Positions 2,127 to 48,169 of a stretch of 48,169 bases of DNA are shown piece after piece. A program made the translations under genes and the position numbers. The first letter of the stretch is position 1. Each line of letters starts with the position of its first letter. Under the pieces are notes generated by a model that ran no database searches, was not told the origin of the DNA, and was given only the letters and a program-made list of their open reading frames with translations. Source of the DNA: a virus; IMG/VR virus record IMGVR_UViG_3300027974_000052, positions 1 to 48,169 of that record; one strand, given 5' to 3'.

Positions 2127-4808
2127 ATGATAGATAAAAGTATGAACCCTGCACCGCAAGGTATAACTAGCTTAGCAGGAGCAGAACCTGACCTTGAGAT
2201 TGAGATTGAAAACCCAGATGATGTGACTATGGTTATAGATGGCATGGAGATTGATCTAATGCCTGATATGGAGGACGATAGCTTTAGCGATAATTTAGCT
2301 GATTATTTAAGCGATTCAGAACTTCAAATGCTAGCAGGAGAACTACTTGCTGACTTTGATGACGATATAGCCTCAAGAAAAGATTGGATAACGACATATA
2401 CTGACGGCATAGAGCTGCTGGGTATGAAGATTGAAGAAAGGTCAGAACCTTGGGAAGGCGCATGTGGGGTATATCACCCTCTTTTATCTGAAGCGATTGT
2501 TAAGTTTCAGGCTGAAACAATGATGTCCTCTTTTCCAGCAGCAGGGCCAGTACGCACACAAATCATAGGCAAAGAAACTCAAGCTAAAAAAGACTCTGCC
2601 GCTCGTGTTCAAGAAGATATGAACTATCAGTTAACTGATGTAATGGACGAGTTTAGACCTGAGCATGAACGTATGCTTTGGGGTTTAGGTATGGCGGGTA
2701 ATGCCTTTAAAAAGGTGTATTTTGATTCTCAGCTTGATAGACAAGTATCTGTATTTGTTCCAGCAGAGGACTTAGTTGTGCCTTATGGGGCGATGAATTT
2801 AGAACAAGCAGAACGTGTAACGCATGTAATGCGTAAAACAGAAAATGAGCTACGCAGACTACAAGTAGCGGGGTTTTATAGTGACGTTGACTTAGGAGAA
2901 CCTAGTAACTCATTAGATGATGTAGAAAAGAAAATAGCTGAAAAAATGGGCTTTAGAGCTACATCAGATAATAGATACAAGATTTTAGAAATGCACGTTG
3001 ACTTAGACCTGCCAGGATTTGAACATGAAGAAGACGGTGAATTTACAGGAATTGCCCTACCCTATGTTGTTACCATTGAAAAAGGAACAAGCACCATTCT
3101 ATCTATTAGACGAAATTGGGAACAAGATGATAAGTTATATAAAAAACGGCAGCATTTTGTGCATTATGGTTACGTTCCTGGTTTTGGGTTTTACTGTTTT
3201 GGGCTTATCCATCTTGTCGGTGCTTTCGCTAAGTCTGGTACATCTCTCATTAGACAGCTTGTGGACGCGGGTACACTCTCTAATTTGCCAGGGGGCTTTA
3301 AAACTAGGGGAATGAGGGTAAAAGGTGATGACACACCTATTGCTCCTGGTGAATGGCGGGATGTAGATGTGCCATCAGGCACAATGAGGGACAATTTTGT
3401 GCCCTTACCCTATAAAGAACCAAGTCAGACATTAATGGCTTTGTTAGGTCAAATTATTGATGAGGGTAGACGGTTTGCCAATGCTGCGGACTTACAAATA
3501 TCCGATATGTCGGGGCAAGCTCCTGTAGGAACTACACTTGCAATTCTTGAAAGAAACACTAAAGCTATGTCAGCTATCATGGCTAGAGTGCATTTTGCAT
3601 TTAAGCAAGAGTTGGGATTATTAAAGGGCATTATTGCGGCCTATACTCCTGAAGATTACGAGTATGAACCTAATGTGGGCAATAGAAAAGCCAAGCGATC
3701 AGATTATGATATGGTTGAAGTTATCCCCGTATCTGACCCTAATGCCTCTACAATGGCGCAAAAAATTGTACAGTATCAAGCGGTACTTCAATTAGCACAG
3801 ACAGCTCCGCAAATATACAACATGCCGTTACTTCATAGACAGATGTTGGATGTTTTAGGCGTAAAAGAAGCGCATAAGTTAGTGCCTTTAGAAGAAGATC
3901 AAAAACCAACTGATCCTGTTACAGAAAACCAAGCCGTTTTAATGAACAAACCTGTAAAAGCGTTCGCCACACAAGACCATAAATCACATATTGCCGTACA
4001 CATGGCACCTATGCAAGACCCTAAAATGCAGCAAATAATGCAAAACAATCCTGCAGCGCCACAAATGATGGCTGCAATGTCAGCGCATATTGCTGAACAT
4101 TTGGGATTTGAGTATAGAGCGCAGATAGAACAACAGTTAGGATTCTCATTGCCCCCACAAAAAGATGAAAGCGGTGAAGAACAACACATGAATCCTGAAG
4201 TGGAGGCTAGATTAGCTCCATTATTAGCTCAAGCGGCTCAACAATTACTCCAACAAAACCAAGGAGAAGTCGCCCAACAACAGGCTAAACAACAAGCACA
4301 AGACCCACTAGTACAGATGCAGCAACAAGAGCTACAACTCAAACAGCAAGAGCAACAACGAAAGGCTCAAAAAGACCAACTCGATGCACAAATAAAAATG
4401 CAACAACTTCAAGTTGAAAGAGAAAGGATTCAGGCTCAACAGCAAACTGCTGCGGAACAAACTAGAGTAGCAGCATTAAGCAACGCGGCTAAACTTGAAG
4501 CAACTAAGACTAATGACGCGAGTAAATTAAAAGTGCAAGCTTTATCAGAAGCAGCACGGTTAACCGCAGATAATAAAAAAGCGGCTACAAATACTAAATT
4601 ACAGGCACTATCAGAAGCAGCGCGTTTAACGGCTGATAACAATGGAGCAGCATCAAATACTAGAACGGACGTGCTAAAAACAACTGCTCAACTGGCTGAA
4701 CAAAAACGCCAACATGATACTAAACTTGAGCATGAAGGGTTGCAAAAAGCGTTAGATCGTGAGCATCAAATAAGCACACGACAAAACCAGCCACTAGAAG
4801 GTGAATAA
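2127..4808 (+). CDS. Portal protein
   Basis: This is an 893-residue portal forming the ring at one capsid vertex through which DNA enters and leaves. The N-terminus is very acidic, then comes a conserved portal block (around residues 80-150: RSEPWEG.CGVYHPLL.EAIVKFQAE). The last 200 residues are Gln/Ala-rich coiled coil, including two nearly identical copies of a segment around ALSEAARLTADN. This resembles the long barrel-type C-termini of P22-like portals. It is preceded by AGGAC and its stop overlaps the next start (TAATG). Confidence 0.9.
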   Translation: MIDKSMNPAPQGITSLAGAEPDLEIEIENPDDVTMVIDGMEIDLMPDMEDDSFSDNLADYLSDSELQMLAGELLADFDDDIASRKDWITTYTDGIELLGMKIEERSEPWEGACGVYHPLLSEAIVKFQAETMMSSFPAAGPVRTQIIGKETQAKKDSAARVQEDMNYQLTDVMDEFRPEHERMLWGLGMAGNAFKKVYFDSQLDRQVSVFVPAEDLVVPYGAMNLEQAERVTHVMRKTENELRRLQVAGFYSDVDLGEPSNSLDDVEKKIAEKMGFRATSDNRYKILEMHVDLDLPGFEHEEDGEFTGIALPYVVTIEKGTSTILSIRRNWEQDDKLYKKRQHFVHYGYVPGFGFYCFGLIHLVGAFAKSGTSLIRQLVDAGTLSNLPGGFKTRGMRVKGDDTPIAPGEWRDVDVPSGTMRDNFVPLPYKEPSQTLMALLGQIIDEGRRFANAADLQISDMSGQAPVGTTLAILERNTKAMSAIMARVHFAFKQELGLLKGIIAAYTPEDYEYEPNVGNRKAKRSDYDMVEVIPVSDPNASTMAQKIVQYQAVLQLAQTAPQIYNMPLLHRQMLDVLGVKEAHKLVPLEEDQKPTDPVTENQAVLMNKPVKAFATQDHKSHIAVHMAPMQDPKMQQIMQNNPAAPQMMAAMSAHIAEHLGFEYRAQIEQQLGFSLPPQKDESGEEQHMNPEVEARLAPLLAQAAQQLLQQNQGEVAQQQAKQQAQDPLVQMQQQELQLKQQEQQRKAQKDQLDAQIKMQQLQVERERIQAQQQTAAEQTRVAALSNAAKLEATKTNDASKLKVQALSEAARLTADNKKAATNTKLQALSEAARLTADNNGAASNTRTDVLKTTAQLAEQKRQHDTKLEHEGLQKALDREHQISTRQNQPLEGE

Positions 4809-43072: not shown

Positions 43073-43306
43073 TTAAAGGTAGTCTTTTTCTTCTTCGTCC
43101 TCTGTTTTTAACAGATCAAGCAAGGGCGGTTTAACTATATCAGCGCTCATTACCCACCCTCTGACTTTATTATTGCAGTACTTTCTTTCTCTCTTAGCTA
43201 TGCGCCAAGTGAACTCACACAGAGCGTCTATATTACGTTCTATTAGCTCTTCGTTTAATCCTGAGTCTTTGGCTAACTGTCTTACTGATCTAGTTTTTAT
43301 TATCAT
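43073..43306 (-). CDS. Small unknown protein of the replication operon
   Basis: This is a 77-residue protein: MIIKTRSVRQLAKDSGLNEE, CEFTWRIAKRERKYCNNKVR, and an acidic C-terminus (KTEDEEEKDYL). The N-terminus could form a short helix-turn-helix. It is not recognised. It starts in an ATGA overlap with the HNH-like gene, so the two are co-translated. Confidence 0.65.
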   Translation of the reverse strand: MIIKTRSVRQLAKDSGLNEELIERNIDALCEFTWRIAKRERKYCNNKVRGWVMSADIVKPPLLDLLKTEDEEEKDYL

Positions 43307-43572
43307 TTTGGCTTGTCGTATTTATTTTTAGGTTTACCGTCAGCATCTCTGGCAAAAGTTCTATTCTTTTTAGCGGGGGCTAAAAATGTACCGTCTTTAT
43401 TAGAACCGCCTTTAGCTAAAGATTTAACGTGGCATACATCTTTGCCTGTACGATCTACACCTTTTTTATCTAAGGCACGTCTAGCGCGTTGTCTCTCCAT
43501 GCGAGCTTCAAAGGCACCAGGCTTTGCTTTTTCTAATGCGCGTTCATGAGTATAGTCACGTTTTTTAGTCAC
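43303..43572 (-). CDS. HNH-like small protein
   Basis: This is an 89-residue protein from a GTG start, overlapping the upstream small gene by eight bases. A basic helical N-terminus (ALEKAKPGAFEARMERQRAR) leads to KDVCHVKSLAKGGSNKDGTF and APAKKNRTFARD, a pattern resembling the 'DVDH..PL.+GG.N...N......+NRS' core of small phage HNH endonucleases. The usual Asp-His pair reads Cys-His here. It may be a nuclease or a decayed, DNA-binding relative. It is unrelated in sequence to the two intein-nested HNH proteins. Confidence 0.65.
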   Translation of the reverse strand: MTKKRDYTHERALEKAKPGAFEARMERQRARRALDKKGVDRTGKDVCHVKSLAKGGSNKDGTFLAPAKKNRTFARDADGKPKNKYDKPK

Positions 43573-44529: not shown

Positions 44530-47500
44530 TTATCCTGCTTCTTTTAATGTCCTACCAAATGCCCCCTCAGCGCCTAGTGGTATGCCAGGCATCCATGCTG
44601 GTTCTTTGCACAGCTCTGCAATAATAAAGTCTAAGGCTTTTTGGGCTTCATCTTCAGGAACTACACAATAACAACTATCATGGATAGTTAGGGCGATCTT
44701 ATAGCGCTTGGTGATTCTCACCATCGCTTCTCCCATTATACACCTTGCTAAAGCCTGCACACAGTTATGCACAATAAAAGGCCCCGTTTTCCCAAGAACT
44801 ACAAAACGAGTTAAAGGCCCACAATCCATTATGTCGTAAACTTTTCTTTCTTGTTCGCGAAGTCTGGTTTTCTTAACAACTCCTCTAAAGGCCACCCCGC
44901 TTTTAATCTGTTGTATATAGTAGTACGCCCTATACCCGATTGTTTTGATAAAGTTGGCACATCTATTCGGATAGTGTTTCTTTTGTTCATCATGTTCTGC
45001 CTTGGCGTTGTCCAATGGCAGTTCTCTTTGTAATACCCTAAATTGTTGTCTATTCGATCTAATTGCAGCCCCTCCTTGTAGGTGTCCTTCATATCCTCCC
45101 AAAAATTTTCGAATGATACCTTCCATGCTTCGCACACTAAAATTCCCCTCCCCCCATAGTTTGCAAAGGCCTTGTGATTCTTGTTCCCACATCGTTGTTT
45201 CATACTGTCCCATACATGATAAGCTAAATGCTTGCTCATTCCATGAGTGCGGTTTTTTTCTGCTACTAATCTTTTGGAAGCGCATCCACAATTTGGAAGC
45301 CCTCCCCTTTTTATCTCCTTTTTTACATCGCTCCCTGACTTTATGCAGGGATTTCCACAAGCGCACAAAAAATTCCAGTGTCTTTTTTTCCCATTTGAGT
45401 GCGCCGCAGATGTCGTTAAGAGTAGACCAAATGTCTGGCCTGTAAGGTCTTGGGTTCGATGATGCAGTTTTCCATCCTTCATTTGTTAATACCTCATGGT
45501 CTGGAGTCATAAATACCCCATCTATACTAACACATGATTGTACAGATTGAAACACCACTCCCCTATGAGATACAAATGAATCCCCATCATGCACTTTGTC
45601 TCGTAAGGTAACTGTCTCTATAGCCTTCCATCCTGAATCAGTAAGTACTAATGTCCCTTCAGATAAGCAATTTTGCACAACTTTTCCAGAATATATCTTA
45701 CGGCGCGAACCTCTATGGCTAGCGTACGTCCACTCCGTACCTGTCTCGGTGCGCATTTCTTTTAAATCAGGGTATTTTAAATAGAGGCCTGAGGGCAACA
45801 ACACTCCCCTCCTGCCCGCTACAAGTAAGTTAATCGTGCCAAAGGTTGCCGCTACATTGTCGCGCATATCTTTTAATACTTGCCCCCCCTTAGCCCACGT
45901 ATTTTTAACCTCGCTAAACTCTTCCCTGTATAAGTCTACAATGCGTGTTGCCTCTGCCGCACCTATATCTGTGCCCGACATAGCTCTAATAGACTCTCTT
46001 AACTTAGCTGCCCCTGTGCCAAAGCCAAGCCCAAGAACACAATTTAGGACTAGCACATTTCCAGCGGTGAATCGTTTTCTAGGCCCTGCGTCTAATATGT
46101 CATAGACTCTAGCCTTGCTTTTAGCACTTTCCAATTTTTGCGCTTGTTGTGCACTGACTCCCATGCTTGTTGTATTATGTCTTCCCCTGTCAACCCTAAA
46201 CGCACATACTTTCGAACCGTGGACATTTGAGTGTAGGGGTTTTCGTTCCATAGCGCGGCTAGAATTAACGCACCTTTCCAATCCACAAACACAGTATTTC
46301 GTCTGTTTTGTATTTGCTGCTGCCGATTTGCTAAACGCAAATTTGTTTTTGTATATCCTTTGTTGTTGTCCACTCTGTCTATTTCTACCCCCTTGTAGTC
46401 TTTGTGGGGTAAATGTTTTTCTACCCATAGAATAAACTCCATTCGGGAGGCAAACTCGCAGTGTATCCCCCGCCCTCCATAATTCGGGTAGTTCCTGTTT
46501 TTGGGGTTTTGGCATCGGGCTATAATGGCATCGTACCTTCGACCTAAAGTTTCTGAGTGTTTTGATTTTGTTTGGGAGCATGATTGACACCCTTTTGTCC
46601 TCCCCCGAGTAAGAGAAGACTTGTTTATCCATTTCTCCATTCCACATTGAGTACACTTTACGTACACATAGATGCTCTTTCCTTGGCGGGTTATTTTGTC
46701 TGAAATAATCTGCACTAACCCGTATTGCCCGCCCACTAGCTCCTGTTCTAATAAGGGTTTCCATTCTGGATGCTGCGACCCCGAAAGGAATCGGCCCTTG
46801 CTCTGTGAATACACCGTGGTCTTCGGTAGCGGTGAGCCCATTGTAAGTGATGACATTTTTTTCCCCTTGATAAATTACCCCTTTATGAGACACCCATTCT
46901 ACCCCGTCCCATACCCTATCTTCAAGAGTTACTTTTTCTATAGCCTTTTCACCATGATTAGTTAGCACTAATGTGCCCTCGGCAATGCAGGTTTTCCCCA
47001 CAAAGCGTTGGTCTTTTGTTACTTCATCATAGGGTACTTTAAACGCAGATGCAGCAAAGTCTTTATATAGGTCTTTACCTTCAGCAATAATCTTAAGCTT
47101 ATCGAACTGTCCTGAAAAATATAAACTCACTCTTAGCTCTATATTGCTTAAGTCAGCACCCACTATAACGTGTCCTTCTGGGGCTTGTATAGCCGATTTA
47201 ATAGGTGATGTTCTAGGGATGTTCTGCATATTAAACGATACCCCACTCCACCTACCCGATACATCTGCGCCATAATATTTAAGCGGTATAGGCAGGTATC
47301 TATTTGCATGAGCAATCTCTATAAAAGTTTGGGTGCGGGTCTCTTCTATAGTAGATTTAGTGCCTAGTCTAGCCGCAACAATAGCTTGAACGTCAAAGTC
47401 TGGATAGTCTAATAATGCTTTCATATCCTCGTCAGTCTTAGCGAAGGCGTATGTTTCCTTACCCGTTGTCGGGCTTATCTTCATAGGCGGTACTACCCCA

Positions 47501-48169
47501 TGCGATCTTAATACATCAGCGAATTTAGGATTAGACATTAAATCTTCTTTAGCCATACCGCTAGCTGCCAGTAGGTCTTCTTTGCGCCTTTTGGTATGGT
47601 GTAAGTGATCCTCTAGCGTAGGCAGGTCTAAGATAAAACTAGGCTCTGTGTGCATACGTATAGTCATATCAATGAGCTTTATCTCAATCCTATTAAAGTG
47701 TGGAGCCAAGTGGTTGAATAGCCCGCGAGTCAACTCTACATCGTTTATGCAGTACTGGCCGTACTTAGCTAGTTCTTCTTCACTAAAGTCTACTCGCCTA
47801 ACTCCCATAGCACTGACTACTTCAGTACCTTTCTGCCCTAACTCATAATGCTCCGCTAGTTTAGCAAGTGACCCCCCTACTTCTGTGCCATGCACTGCCC
47901 TAGCCATAGACAAAGTGTCTATCCATAATTTAGGCTTTATGCCAAACTTCCACGTTAAAATAGTGGCATCAAATAGAGTGTTGTGGGCATAAACCCAGGA
48001 ACTTTCCCAATCAAACTGGGTTAACCATTTATTAGTCTCCTCCATTGTCCCGCTGAACCATTCAGCAGGGGCTTCATTTACTTTTACTGCTACTCCGATA
48101 ACCTCGAAGAGTGGGTGATCTATGTACTCTTGAGTACTTATTTTTGAGAGACTGTATTTTTTGTCGTAA
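44530..48169 (-). CDS. DNA polymerase, family A, interrupted by two inteins; 5' end outside window
   Basis: This is the replicative polymerase with a 3'-5' exonuclease domain. The frame is open to the window edge: beyond the ATG at 48045 it continues upstream with YSLSKISTQEYIDHPLFEVI and VGVAVKV, ordinary exonuclease-domain sequence, so the true start is missing. Visible motifs are Exo II AHNTLFD (Asp 47968-47970), Exo III YCINDVE, polymerase motif A VGADLSNIELRV (Asp 47152-47154), O-helix QRFVGKT/CVLGLGFG split by intein 1, NCVQALAR split by intein 2, and motif C TIHDSCY (Asp 44677-44679; the usual Glu is Ser). The spliced exteins in view total about 594 residues, a normal T7-like size. Activity requires both inteins to be removed. 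Confidence 0.93.
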   Translation of the reverse strand, partial: YDKKYSLSKISTQEYIDHPLFEVIGVAVKVNEAPAEWFSGTMEETNKWLTQFDWESSWVYAHNTLFDATILTWKFGIKPKLWIDTLSMARAVHGTEVGGSLAKLAEHYELGQKGTEVVSAMGVRRVDFSEEELAKYGQYCINDVELTRGLFNHLAPHFNRIEIKLIDMTIRMHTEPSFILDLPTLEDHLHHTKRRKEDLLAASGMAKEDLMSNPKFADVLRSHGVVPPMKISPTTGKETYAFAKTDEDMKALLDYPDFDVQAIVAARLGTKSTIEETRTQTFIEIAHANRYLPIPLKYYGADVSGRWSGVSFNMQNIPRTSPIKSAIQAPEGHVIVGADLSNIELRVSLYFSGQFDKLKIIAEGKDLYKDFAASAFKVPYDEVTKDQRFVGKTCIAEGTLVLTNHGEKAIEKVTLEDRVWDGVEWVSHKGVIYQGEKNVITYNGLTATEDHGVFTEQGPIPFGVAASRMETLIRTGASGRAIRVSADYFRQNNPPRKEHLCVRKVYSMWNGEMDKQVFSYSGEDKRVSIMLPNKIKTLRNFRSKVRCHYSPMPKPQKQELPELWRAGDTLRVCLPNGVYSMGRKTFTPQRLQGGRNRQSGQQQRIYKNKFAFSKSAAANTKQTKYCVCGLERCVNSSRAMERKPLHSNVHGSKVCAFRVDRGRHNTTSMGVSAQQAQKLESAKSKARVYDILDAGPRKRFTAGNVLVLNCVLGLGFGTGAAKLRESIRAMSGTDIGAAEATRIVDLYREEFSEVKNTWAKGGQVLKDMRDNVAATFGTINLLVAGRRGVLLPSGLYLKYPDLKEMRTETGTEWTYASHRGSRRKIYSGKVVQNCLSEGTLVLTDSGWKAIETVTLRDKVHDGDSFVSHRGVVFQSVQSCVSIDGVFMTPDHEVLTNEGWKTASSNPRPYRPDIWSTLNDICGALKWEKKTLEFFVRLWKSLHKVRERCKKGDKKGRASKLWMRFQKISSRKKPHSWNEQAFSLSCMGQYETTMWEQESQGLCKLWGEGNFSVRSMEGIIRKFLGGYEGHLQGGAAIRSNRQQFRVLQRELPLDNAKAEHDEQKKHYPNRCANFIKTIGYRAYYYIQQIKSGVAFRGVVKKTRLREQERKVYDIMDCGPLTRFVVLGKTGPFIVHNCVQALARCIMGEAMVRITKRYKIALTIHDSCYCVVPEDEAQKALDFIIAELCKEPAWMPGIPLGAEGAFGRTLKEAG
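44764..45669 (-). other. Intein 2 at the polymerase C-terminal Q motif
   Basis: This is a 302-residue intein between GKVVQN and CVQALARCIMGEAM. Block A is CLSEGTLVLTDSGWKAIETV (Cys1 at 45667-45669), block B is MTPDHEVLT, block F is KVYDIMDCGPLTRF and block G is GPFIVHN with the standard penultimate His; Cys+1 follows. It is clearly related to intein 1: C..EGTLVLT..G.KAIE.VTL.D.V.DG...VSH.GV is shared. Its B-to-F interval in the polymerase frame is again a basic, Cys-rich linker that overlaps an HNH gene in the +1 frame. All residues expected for splicing are present. Confidence 0.94.
44829..45482 (-). CDS. HNH homing endonuclease nested out of frame in intein 2
   Basis: This is a 217-residue protein in the +1 frame within intein 2. 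GAGGT lies about eight bases before ATG 45482, and both the site and the start are made of codons for intein block B (PDHEVLTNEG). The conserved part begins almost at once: LTGQTFGLLLTTSA, then a zinc-ribbon-like LCACG...NCGCA. The HNH core is VWDSMKQRCGNKNHKAFANY, GGRGILVCEAW, LQLDRIDNNLGYYKENCHW. The C-terminal TLSKQSGIGRTTIYNRLKAG is a NUMOD-like helix-turn-helix. The stop lies in block F. It is divergent from the 46092-46856 protein despite the same fold and position. Confidence 0.92.
   Translation of the reverse strand: MKDGKLHHRTQDLTGQTFGLLLTTSAAHSNGKKRHWNFLCACGNPCIKSGSDVKKEIKRGGLPNCGCASKRLVAEKNRTHGMSKHLAYHVWDSMKQRCGNKNHKAFANYGGRGILVCEAWKVSFENFWEDMKDTYKEGLQLDRIDNNLGYYKENCHWTTPRQNMMNKRNTIRIDVPTLSKQSGIGRTTIYNRLKAGWPLEELLRKPDFANKKEKFTT
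46042..46989 (-). other. Intein 1 in the polymerase O-helix
   Basis: This is a 316-residue protein-splicing element inserted between QRFVGKT and CVLGLGFG. Block A is CIAEGTLVLTNHGEKAIEKV with Cys1 (46987-46989). Block B is TATEDHGVF, with the TxxH pattern. Block F is RVYDILDAGPRKRF. Block G is AGNVLVLN followed by Cys+1. The terminal Asn (46042-46044) and both nucleophilic Cys are present, but the penultimate His is Leu, a known tolerated variant in some inteins. Between blocks B and F the polymerase frame encodes a basic, Cys- and Gln-rich linker unlike any endonuclease. An HNH gene occupies the +1 frame there. Confidence 0.93.
46092..46856 (-). CDS. HNH homing endonuclease nested out of frame in intein 1
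   Basis: This is a 254-residue protein in the +1 frame relative to the intein on the same strand. AAGGGG lies eight bases before ATG 46856; a GTG at 46736, directly before the conserved part, is an alternative start. Residues about 40-95 form a zinc-ribbon-like region (VKCTQCGMEKW, GCQSC). Residues about 105-185 are the LDRIDN-type HNH core: RYDAIIARCQNPKNRNYPNY, GGRGI, EIDRVDNNKGYTKTNLR. The end is a helical DNA-binding region (ALILAALWNENPYTQ). The first 40 residues are the alternative reading of the intein N-terminal blocks. The stop falls inside intein block F. Presumed to cut an intein-less polymerase allele. Confidence 0.9.
   Translation of the reverse strand: MSSLTMGSPLPKTTVYSQSKGRFLSGSQHPEWKPLLEQELVGGQYGLVQIISDKITRQGKSIYVYVKCTQCGMEKWINKSSLTRGRTKGCQSCSQTKSKHSETLGRRYDAIIARCQNPKNRNYPNYGGRGIHCEFASRMEFILWVEKHLPHKDYKGVEIDRVDNNKGYTKTNLRLANRQQQIQNRRNTVFVDWKGALILAALWNENPYTQMSTVRKYVRLGLTGEDIIQQAWESVHNKRKNWKVLKARLESMTY

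Follow-up and report, generated by a model that had tools for sequence, protein, structure and literature searches.

The DNA polymerase gene of the viral contig analysed here, a stretch of 48,169 nucleotides (IMG/VR record IMGVR_UViG_3300027974_000052; hereafter the window), contains two inteins, and the DNA between the splicing blocks of each also encodes an HNH-family protein, one base out of register with the polymerase. We regard it as very probable that both inserts represent composite mobile elements, in which a cis-splicing mini-intein is overprinted by a separately initiated HNH homing endonuclease gene. Out-of-frame HNH genes in inteins are a large and recurrent class of phage mobile elements.

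Two inteins with an overlapping HNH frame

The features of the polymerase gene are as follows (a slash marks a splice junction or insertion point here and below):

44530..48168, minus strand: phage family-A DNA polymerase gene (PF00476, phrog_17), a single open frame across both inteins
46042..46989, minus strand: intein 1, 316 aa, at polymerase motif B, junctions GKT/C...LN/C, with blocks A, B, F and G; an exact insertion compared with empty relatives
46861..46868, minus strand: Shine-Dalgarno-like AAGGGGAA ahead of the HNH1 ATG
46092..46856, minus strand: HNH1 ORF, 254 aa, +1 relative to the polymerase frame, within intein 1
44764..45669, minus strand: intein 2, 302 aa, at a C-terminal polymerase site, junctions VVQN/C...VHN/C, with a Hint domain predicted by AlphaFold and matched to inteins by Foldseek
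45492..45495, minus strand: Shine-Dalgarno-like GAGG, formed by block B codons (D-H-E-V), 9 nt ahead of the HNH2 ATG
44829..45482, minus strand: HNH2 ORF, 217 aa, +1 relative to the polymerase frame, within intein 2, with its stop codon at block F

The polymerase frame is open for 1212 codons, its 5' end being open at the window edge, and the splicing halves lie in this one frame and not on separate ORFs as in a split intein. Both inteins start with Cys and end with Asn, which is followed by Cys at +1, and both have a block B with the TxxH motif and a block F. Position 1, TxxH, the terminal Asn and the +1 residue are all as in inteins, and C1, T55, H58 and N302 are invariant in A5; the penultimate residue of intein 1 is Leu and not His, which we count against our interpretation. 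For intein 2, AlphaFold predicts a two-part Hint domain formed by residues 1-80 and 268-302 (pLDDT about 89-98), and a Foldseek search with this model gave matches at a probability of 1.00 to the gp41-1 and Mtu RecA inteins (best E value 0.0019). In addition, a profile match of the intein to PI-MtuI was obtained at 2e-6. The alignments for structure prediction were built without rows from the phage collection. A group I intron carrying an HNH gene was considered and rejected, as no Rfam match for an intron RNA was found at the insertion up to an E value of 1. The sequence-only reading, which had described a polymerase frame open through two inteins with an HNH ORF in +1 within each, was right in coordinates, frames and lengths.

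The HNH label is based on PHROG families together with a weak profile match to I-HmuI. Among the PHROG HNH families, phrog_374 was matched at 2e-30 by HNH1 and at 7e-54 by HNH2, with further matches to phrog_3377 and phrog_2081, and the HNH family matched I-HmuI at an E value of 0.0024. In the core motif, DRxDN, D-R is aligned to D-H of I-HmuI, the Asp and a later Asn being kept and Arg replacing the motif His. No HNH model of Pfam or NCBIfam matched either protein. The AlphaFold model of HNH2 has a mean pLDDT of 87, and Foldseek of the HNH model against the PDB gave no significant fold match. Due to the Arg at the position of the motif His and the lack of both a Pfam HNH match and a significant PDB fold match, HNH catalysis is a predicted activity.

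The polymerase frame is kept open over the HNH genes

That the polymerase frame is open over the HNH ORFs is far from what would be expected by chance. Permutation of synonymous codons within HNH1 and HNH2 introduced on average 9.7 and 11.0 polymerase-frame stops, respectively, with 0 of 20,000 permutations being stop-free, and the phage's own codon usage predicts 22 stops for HNH1 and 18 for HNH2. A probability of 3e-5 had previously been calculated for a chance second frame; this estimate correctly placed the arrangement far from chance, but it is too mild, as the permutation evidence is far stronger. At related loci, the 96 distinct embedded HNHs contain 0 polymerase-frame stops, whereas at least one is present in 86 of 95 non-embedded HNHs (mean of 16.4 over all 95); most of the 9 stop-free ones lie in long open frames, and some are truncated or unparsed inteins. 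In an independent sample of bacterial genomes, scanned with the HNH alignment as query, stops are absent from 12 of 12 embedded HNHs, and 74 of 74 non-embedded ones contain 2 or more (mean 17.7). T-ending codons before AA, AG or GA, each of which would create a stop in the polymerase frame, are entirely missing from the embedded HNHs (0 seen and 916 expected, at 3571 risk sites), whereas in non-embedded HNHs they occur about as often as expected (1546 seen and 1593 expected).

Given the metagenomic origin of the window, one might suspect an assembly or sequencing artefact, in which indels hide an endonuclease that is really in frame with the intein. However, the whole arrangement is encoded at 100% identity in contigs from two other samples (L003, L004), which rules out indel error, and the same architecture is found in the finished genomes of the isolate phages APSE-1, SFCi1, Javan113 and RW. 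The probability of an artefact is therefore vanishingly small and we regard this explanation as refuted. We also looked at indels near blocks B and F and at polymerase-frame stops in close relatives, the observations named beforehand as speaking against the arrangement, and the arrangement stood.

The HNH protein is conserved and the linker is not

The third codon positions of the HNH frame are the first positions of the polymerase frame. In pairs whose HNH proteins are 20% different, HNH codon positions 1 and 2 diverge by 0.16 and 0.13, and positions 1 and 2 of the splicing blocks, read in the polymerase frame, by 0.16-0.18 and 0.09-0.12. Third positions are equally free in the HNHs (0.449) and in the splicing blocks (0.443-0.478). 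Within the HNHs, variation at third positions exceeds that at second positions by a factor of 3 to 4, and non-embedded HNHs at matched divergence have the same third-position share. In the pairs with 20% difference in the HNH protein, the linkers are 50% divergent in amino acids, and the HNH proteins, but not the linkers, are 40-64% identical across hosts. The codon-position divergence thus indicates protein-level conservation of the HNH and of the splicing blocks, while the linker is simply kept open: it is selected only for the absence of stops and drifts at the rate of the HNH synonymous sites. The earlier suggestion that both frames are under selection holds insofar as both are kept open, but not for both as proteins, the linker being highly divergent and predicted to be disordered.

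A fully dual-coding arrangement, with the linker as a second selected protein such as an intein domain for DNA recognition or solubility, would agree with a polymerase frame that is open in all members and with the one helix (residues 167-191) that is predicted in the intein 2 linker. Otherwise, AlphaFold gives this linker a pLDDT of about 45 and predicts it to be disordered. The linker also diverges 2.4 times faster than the HNH, at the rate of free HNH third positions, and deletion mutants exist that lack nearly all of it (L332, L045, L124). On these grounds, we reject a dual-coding linker as quite unlikely. Slightly less probable still is that the HNH frame is a fossil or a chance ORF and the inserts are plain mini-inteins with long linkers from which no nuclease is made, although some copies have nonsense codons or deletions in the HNH and a Pfam HNH match is lacking. 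This proposal is at odds with the codon pattern of purifying selection described above, with the cross-host conservation of the HNHs but not of the linkers, with the predicted folding of the HNH but not of the linker and with the conserved placement of the HNH start and stop, and was rejected for these reasons.

Probable initiation of the nuclease and proposed mechanism

A Shine-Dalgarno-like pairing of -5 kcal/mol or below precedes the best HNH start in 91% of the members, whereas among the controls, start-like codons picked at random from the same inteins, the share is 52%. Such sites therefore also arise by chance, and we count the 52% against our interpretation. Of 98 members, 97 have their HNH stop at the Asp codon of block F or beyond it, 51 of them within a few bases of this codon. 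This placement of start and stop suggests that the HNH protein is probably made by internal initiation, and the Shine-Dalgarno-like sequences support a separate start, in line with the initial idea that the nuclease is expressed separately from splicing. Alternatively, programmed +1 frameshifting could produce a fusion of intein-N and HNH with no internal initiation, in agreement with a frame relation that is constant within each site. However, a start codon with a Shine-Dalgarno-like sequence is found at the beginning of about 90% of the HNH frames, most members have stops in this frame shortly before the start, and 11 members would need a shift of +2 and not +1, which makes frameshifting unlikely.

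We propose that, in the polymerase frame, blocks A-B and F-G form a Hint domain whose two parts would be joined by a long, unfolded and sequence-free linker. Read one base further on, the linker DNA would constitute a gene for an HNH-family homing endonuclease that has a start and a stop of its own: the ribosome site would lie within the N-terminal splicing block or immediately downstream of it, and the stop at block F or immediately downstream of it. Translation in the polymerase frame would produce a precursor, from which both inteins are spliced out to leave a polymerase of roughly 594 residues (the part within the window), and internally starting ribosomes would produce the free HNH protein. 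This protein could then cut uninvaded alleles at the insertion site, and repair would copy the intein across together with the Cys+1 codon. Selection would purge every stop in the polymerase frame, the linker residues being otherwise free. The anatomy, the selection for an open frame, the mobility, the selection on the HNH as a protein and the stages of decay are shown by the data, and we infer splicing, internal initiation, cleavage and homing.

Mobility of the inteins

Judging from their presence and absence in near-identical viral contigs, the inteins are mobile. Both are absent from four relatives that are ~94% identical in the polymerase gene (L007, L008, L009, L014), and L005/L006 have intein 1 only. 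Alignment with the empty relatives shows a clean insertion and fixes both boundaries exactly: the filled and empty sites read AAAACC/TGT vs AAAACT/AGC for intein 1 and CAAAAT/TGT vs CAAAAT/ACC for intein 2. The +1 codon encodes Cys (TGT) in the invaded alleles and Ser (AGC/TCG) or Thr (ACC) in the empty ones, and such a change from Ser or Thr to Cys is what co-conversion should produce. The copies of intein 1 in the window and in L005 differ at 10 of 948 bases (98.9% nucleotide identity), whereas the host polymerase genes are 94.6% identical, which indicates that the intein moved recently, after the hosts had parted.

Distribution among phages and bacterial genomes

The best phage-database matches of both HNH proteins lie beneath genes annotated as DNA polymerase, in APSE phages, Shewanella SFCi1, Caulobacter RW, Streptococcus Javan113 and Gardnerella AB1. 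Scanning viral sequences with the intein alignment yielded 504 loci; 79 were fetched and pooled with other loci, and the pooled set comprises 100 distinct inteins with the HNH in +1, 1 with it in +2, 1 without HNH and 0 in frame. As the first query had included the linker, the scan was repeated with the N-terminal block alone, which gave 64 inteins in +1, 11 in +2, 5 mini-inteins, 0 in frame and 5 entries without a C-terminal block found. Over all viral, phage and bacterial-genome loci fetched, there are 131 distinct inteins with the HNH in +1, 11 in +2, 0 in frame and 7 without HNH, the 131 and 11 being inteins with both splicing halves in one ORF. The in-frame endonuclease of a canonical bifunctional intein is thus seen in 0 of 142 HNH-bearing same-ORF inteins. 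In bacterial genomes, 12 of 12 have the same architecture. The search for further inteins with an HNH in +1, as recommended in the sequence-only reading, was therefore productive, and with over 130 distinct inteins sharing it, the arrangement is not peculiar to one gene. The common +1 relation applies to both inteins of the window, but it is not universal, as 11 inteins use +2. These are inserted at polymerase motif B sites (L306, L320, L326 (= L133), L337, L344, L345, L350, L353, L355, L358 and L359).

The insertion sites are polymerase motif B, the C-terminal polymerase site and an SNF2-type helicase. Several registers are used at motif B, as at the C-terminal polymerase site, where they lie a few codons apart, and this variety may reflect target recognition by the HNH. 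Among L001-L290, registers 3-12 bases apart are found within one conserved region (GGK/C, GGKL/C, GGKLVEN/C; KT/C, ELA/C).

The window also encodes an SNF2-type helicase (PF00176; 41468-43045, minus strand), in which NKLLQIS/SGAVY represents an empty intein site; the same site is filled by an intein with an out-of-frame HNH in L106, L147, L145, L140 and L099. Between the helicase and nuclease genes of the window lies a small ORF of 89 aa (43303-43572, minus strand), which is rich in charged residues and has no Pfam match.

Split, broken and deleted forms

In the HNH tree, the grouping follows insertion site and frame: the C-terminal polymerase (+1), SNF2 (+1), motif B (+1) and motif B (+2) members each cluster together, and three of these four groups are strongly supported. 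The AU test did not formally reject one common clade for all embedded HNHs (p = 0.07), and the splicing-domain tree has too few columns for resolution. The existence of +1 and +2 forms points to at least two captures or re-framings.

Several states of the element were found. A nonsense codon interrupts HNH1 in L005/L006 and the HNH of L051, with the polymerase frame intact. Compared with L129 (3498-4433), L332 (about 3500-4055) has a 531-nt (177-codon) in-frame deletion, which removes the HNH and leaves an open mini-intein; the deletion has a 4-bp microhomology, and the flanks of the two contigs, which come from the same sample, are 99.6-100% identical. Further deletions are present in L045 and L124. 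Truly split inteins occupy a further polymerase site (RWSG/C...HN/S) in L070 (800-4590), L063 (1-2927) and L071 (1-2600), each with one ORF for the polymerase and intein-N, an HNH ORF that overlaps it, and a separately starting ORF for intein-C and the remaining polymerase. In L070, the polymerase with intein-N ends in a stop, the HNH overlaps intein-N in +1, and intein-C with the rest of the polymerase restarts with AGAGGAAAAAGTATG. The polymerase genes of L063, L070 and L071 also hold a cis intein with an overlapping HNH.

Free, split, overprinted, broken and deleted forms thus coexist; the order in which they evolved is our own reconstruction. We lean towards the view that overprinted inteins are a major and repeatedly evolved phage intein design, in which inteins acquired free-standing HNH genes out of frame on several occasions (the +1 and +2 clades being separate), through or alongside split forms; the captured genes are kept by stop-removing selection only and are lost by in-frame deletion, giving rise to mini-inteins. 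If so, repeated out-of-frame capture would be a missing route that links free homing genes, fractured genes and inteins. With empty, split, overprinted, nonsense and deleted forms all at hand, the origin of endonuclease-bearing inteins becomes testable.

Relation to known systems

Canonical large inteins of the PI-SceI type resemble those described here in having an endonuclease between blocks B and F, a Hint fold and a homing pattern. However, their endonuclease is in frame, whereas the HNHs of the window lie in another frame and have separate starts and stops, and the linker is predicted to be unfolded. In fractured genes, reportedly described by Dassa et al. in 2009, a free-standing endonuclease gene is said to lie between the halves of a split intein. 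An endonuclease gene separate from the splicing halves is common to both systems, and the relatives L063, L070 and L071 have true split forms, but in the window the splicing halves are in one unbroken frame and would act in cis. With I-HmuI and free-standing phage HNH homing endonucleases, the HNH proteins share profile similarity, zinc-binding CxC pairs and a C-terminal HTH-like part; I-HmuI, however, is associated with a group I intron, whereas the HNHs of the window lie inside intein DNA and have Arg for the core-motif His.

The closest published case that we found is the out-of-frame HNH of the ShiLan domain in a phage methylase, for which leaderless translation was proposed and in which the authors found neither an intein nor an intron (PMC11855218). 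It is likewise a mobile insertion with a stop-free host frame, an HNH in another frame and a disjunct distribution, but it has no splicing domain, whereas the complete intein blocks A, B, F and G are present in the host frame of the window. Our literature search found no description of an out-of-frame endonuclease inside an intein, although a preprint on actinobacteriophage inteins of 'non-canonical architecture' (Gosselin et al. 2025, cited by PMC11855218) may describe related cases. As to the initial impression that the arrangement was undescribed, an out-of-frame HNH overlapping a phage gene had been described with ShiLan, though not in an intein, and P46 inside P45 of phage APSE-1 was already in GenBank.

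An intein could in this way carry a nuclease without protein fusion, so that splicing and cutting would be uncoupled and each could be lost separately, and the homing gene would retain its own start and stop. These elements also provide many natural cases of long same-strand overlaps under asymmetric selection, with one frame selected as protein and the other only for being open. Because they lie inside a larger ORF, most such nucleases are missed by annotation pipelines.

Phage APSE-1 has the same architecture as the window, with GenBank listing P46, 'HNH endonuclease', inside P45, 'DNA polymerase'; the two are annotated as overlapping genes only, and we found no description of a link between them in the literature. 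The annotated start of P46 (L046 3735-4157, NC_000935.1) is late, the full open frame being an ORF of 216 aa with a GTG start.
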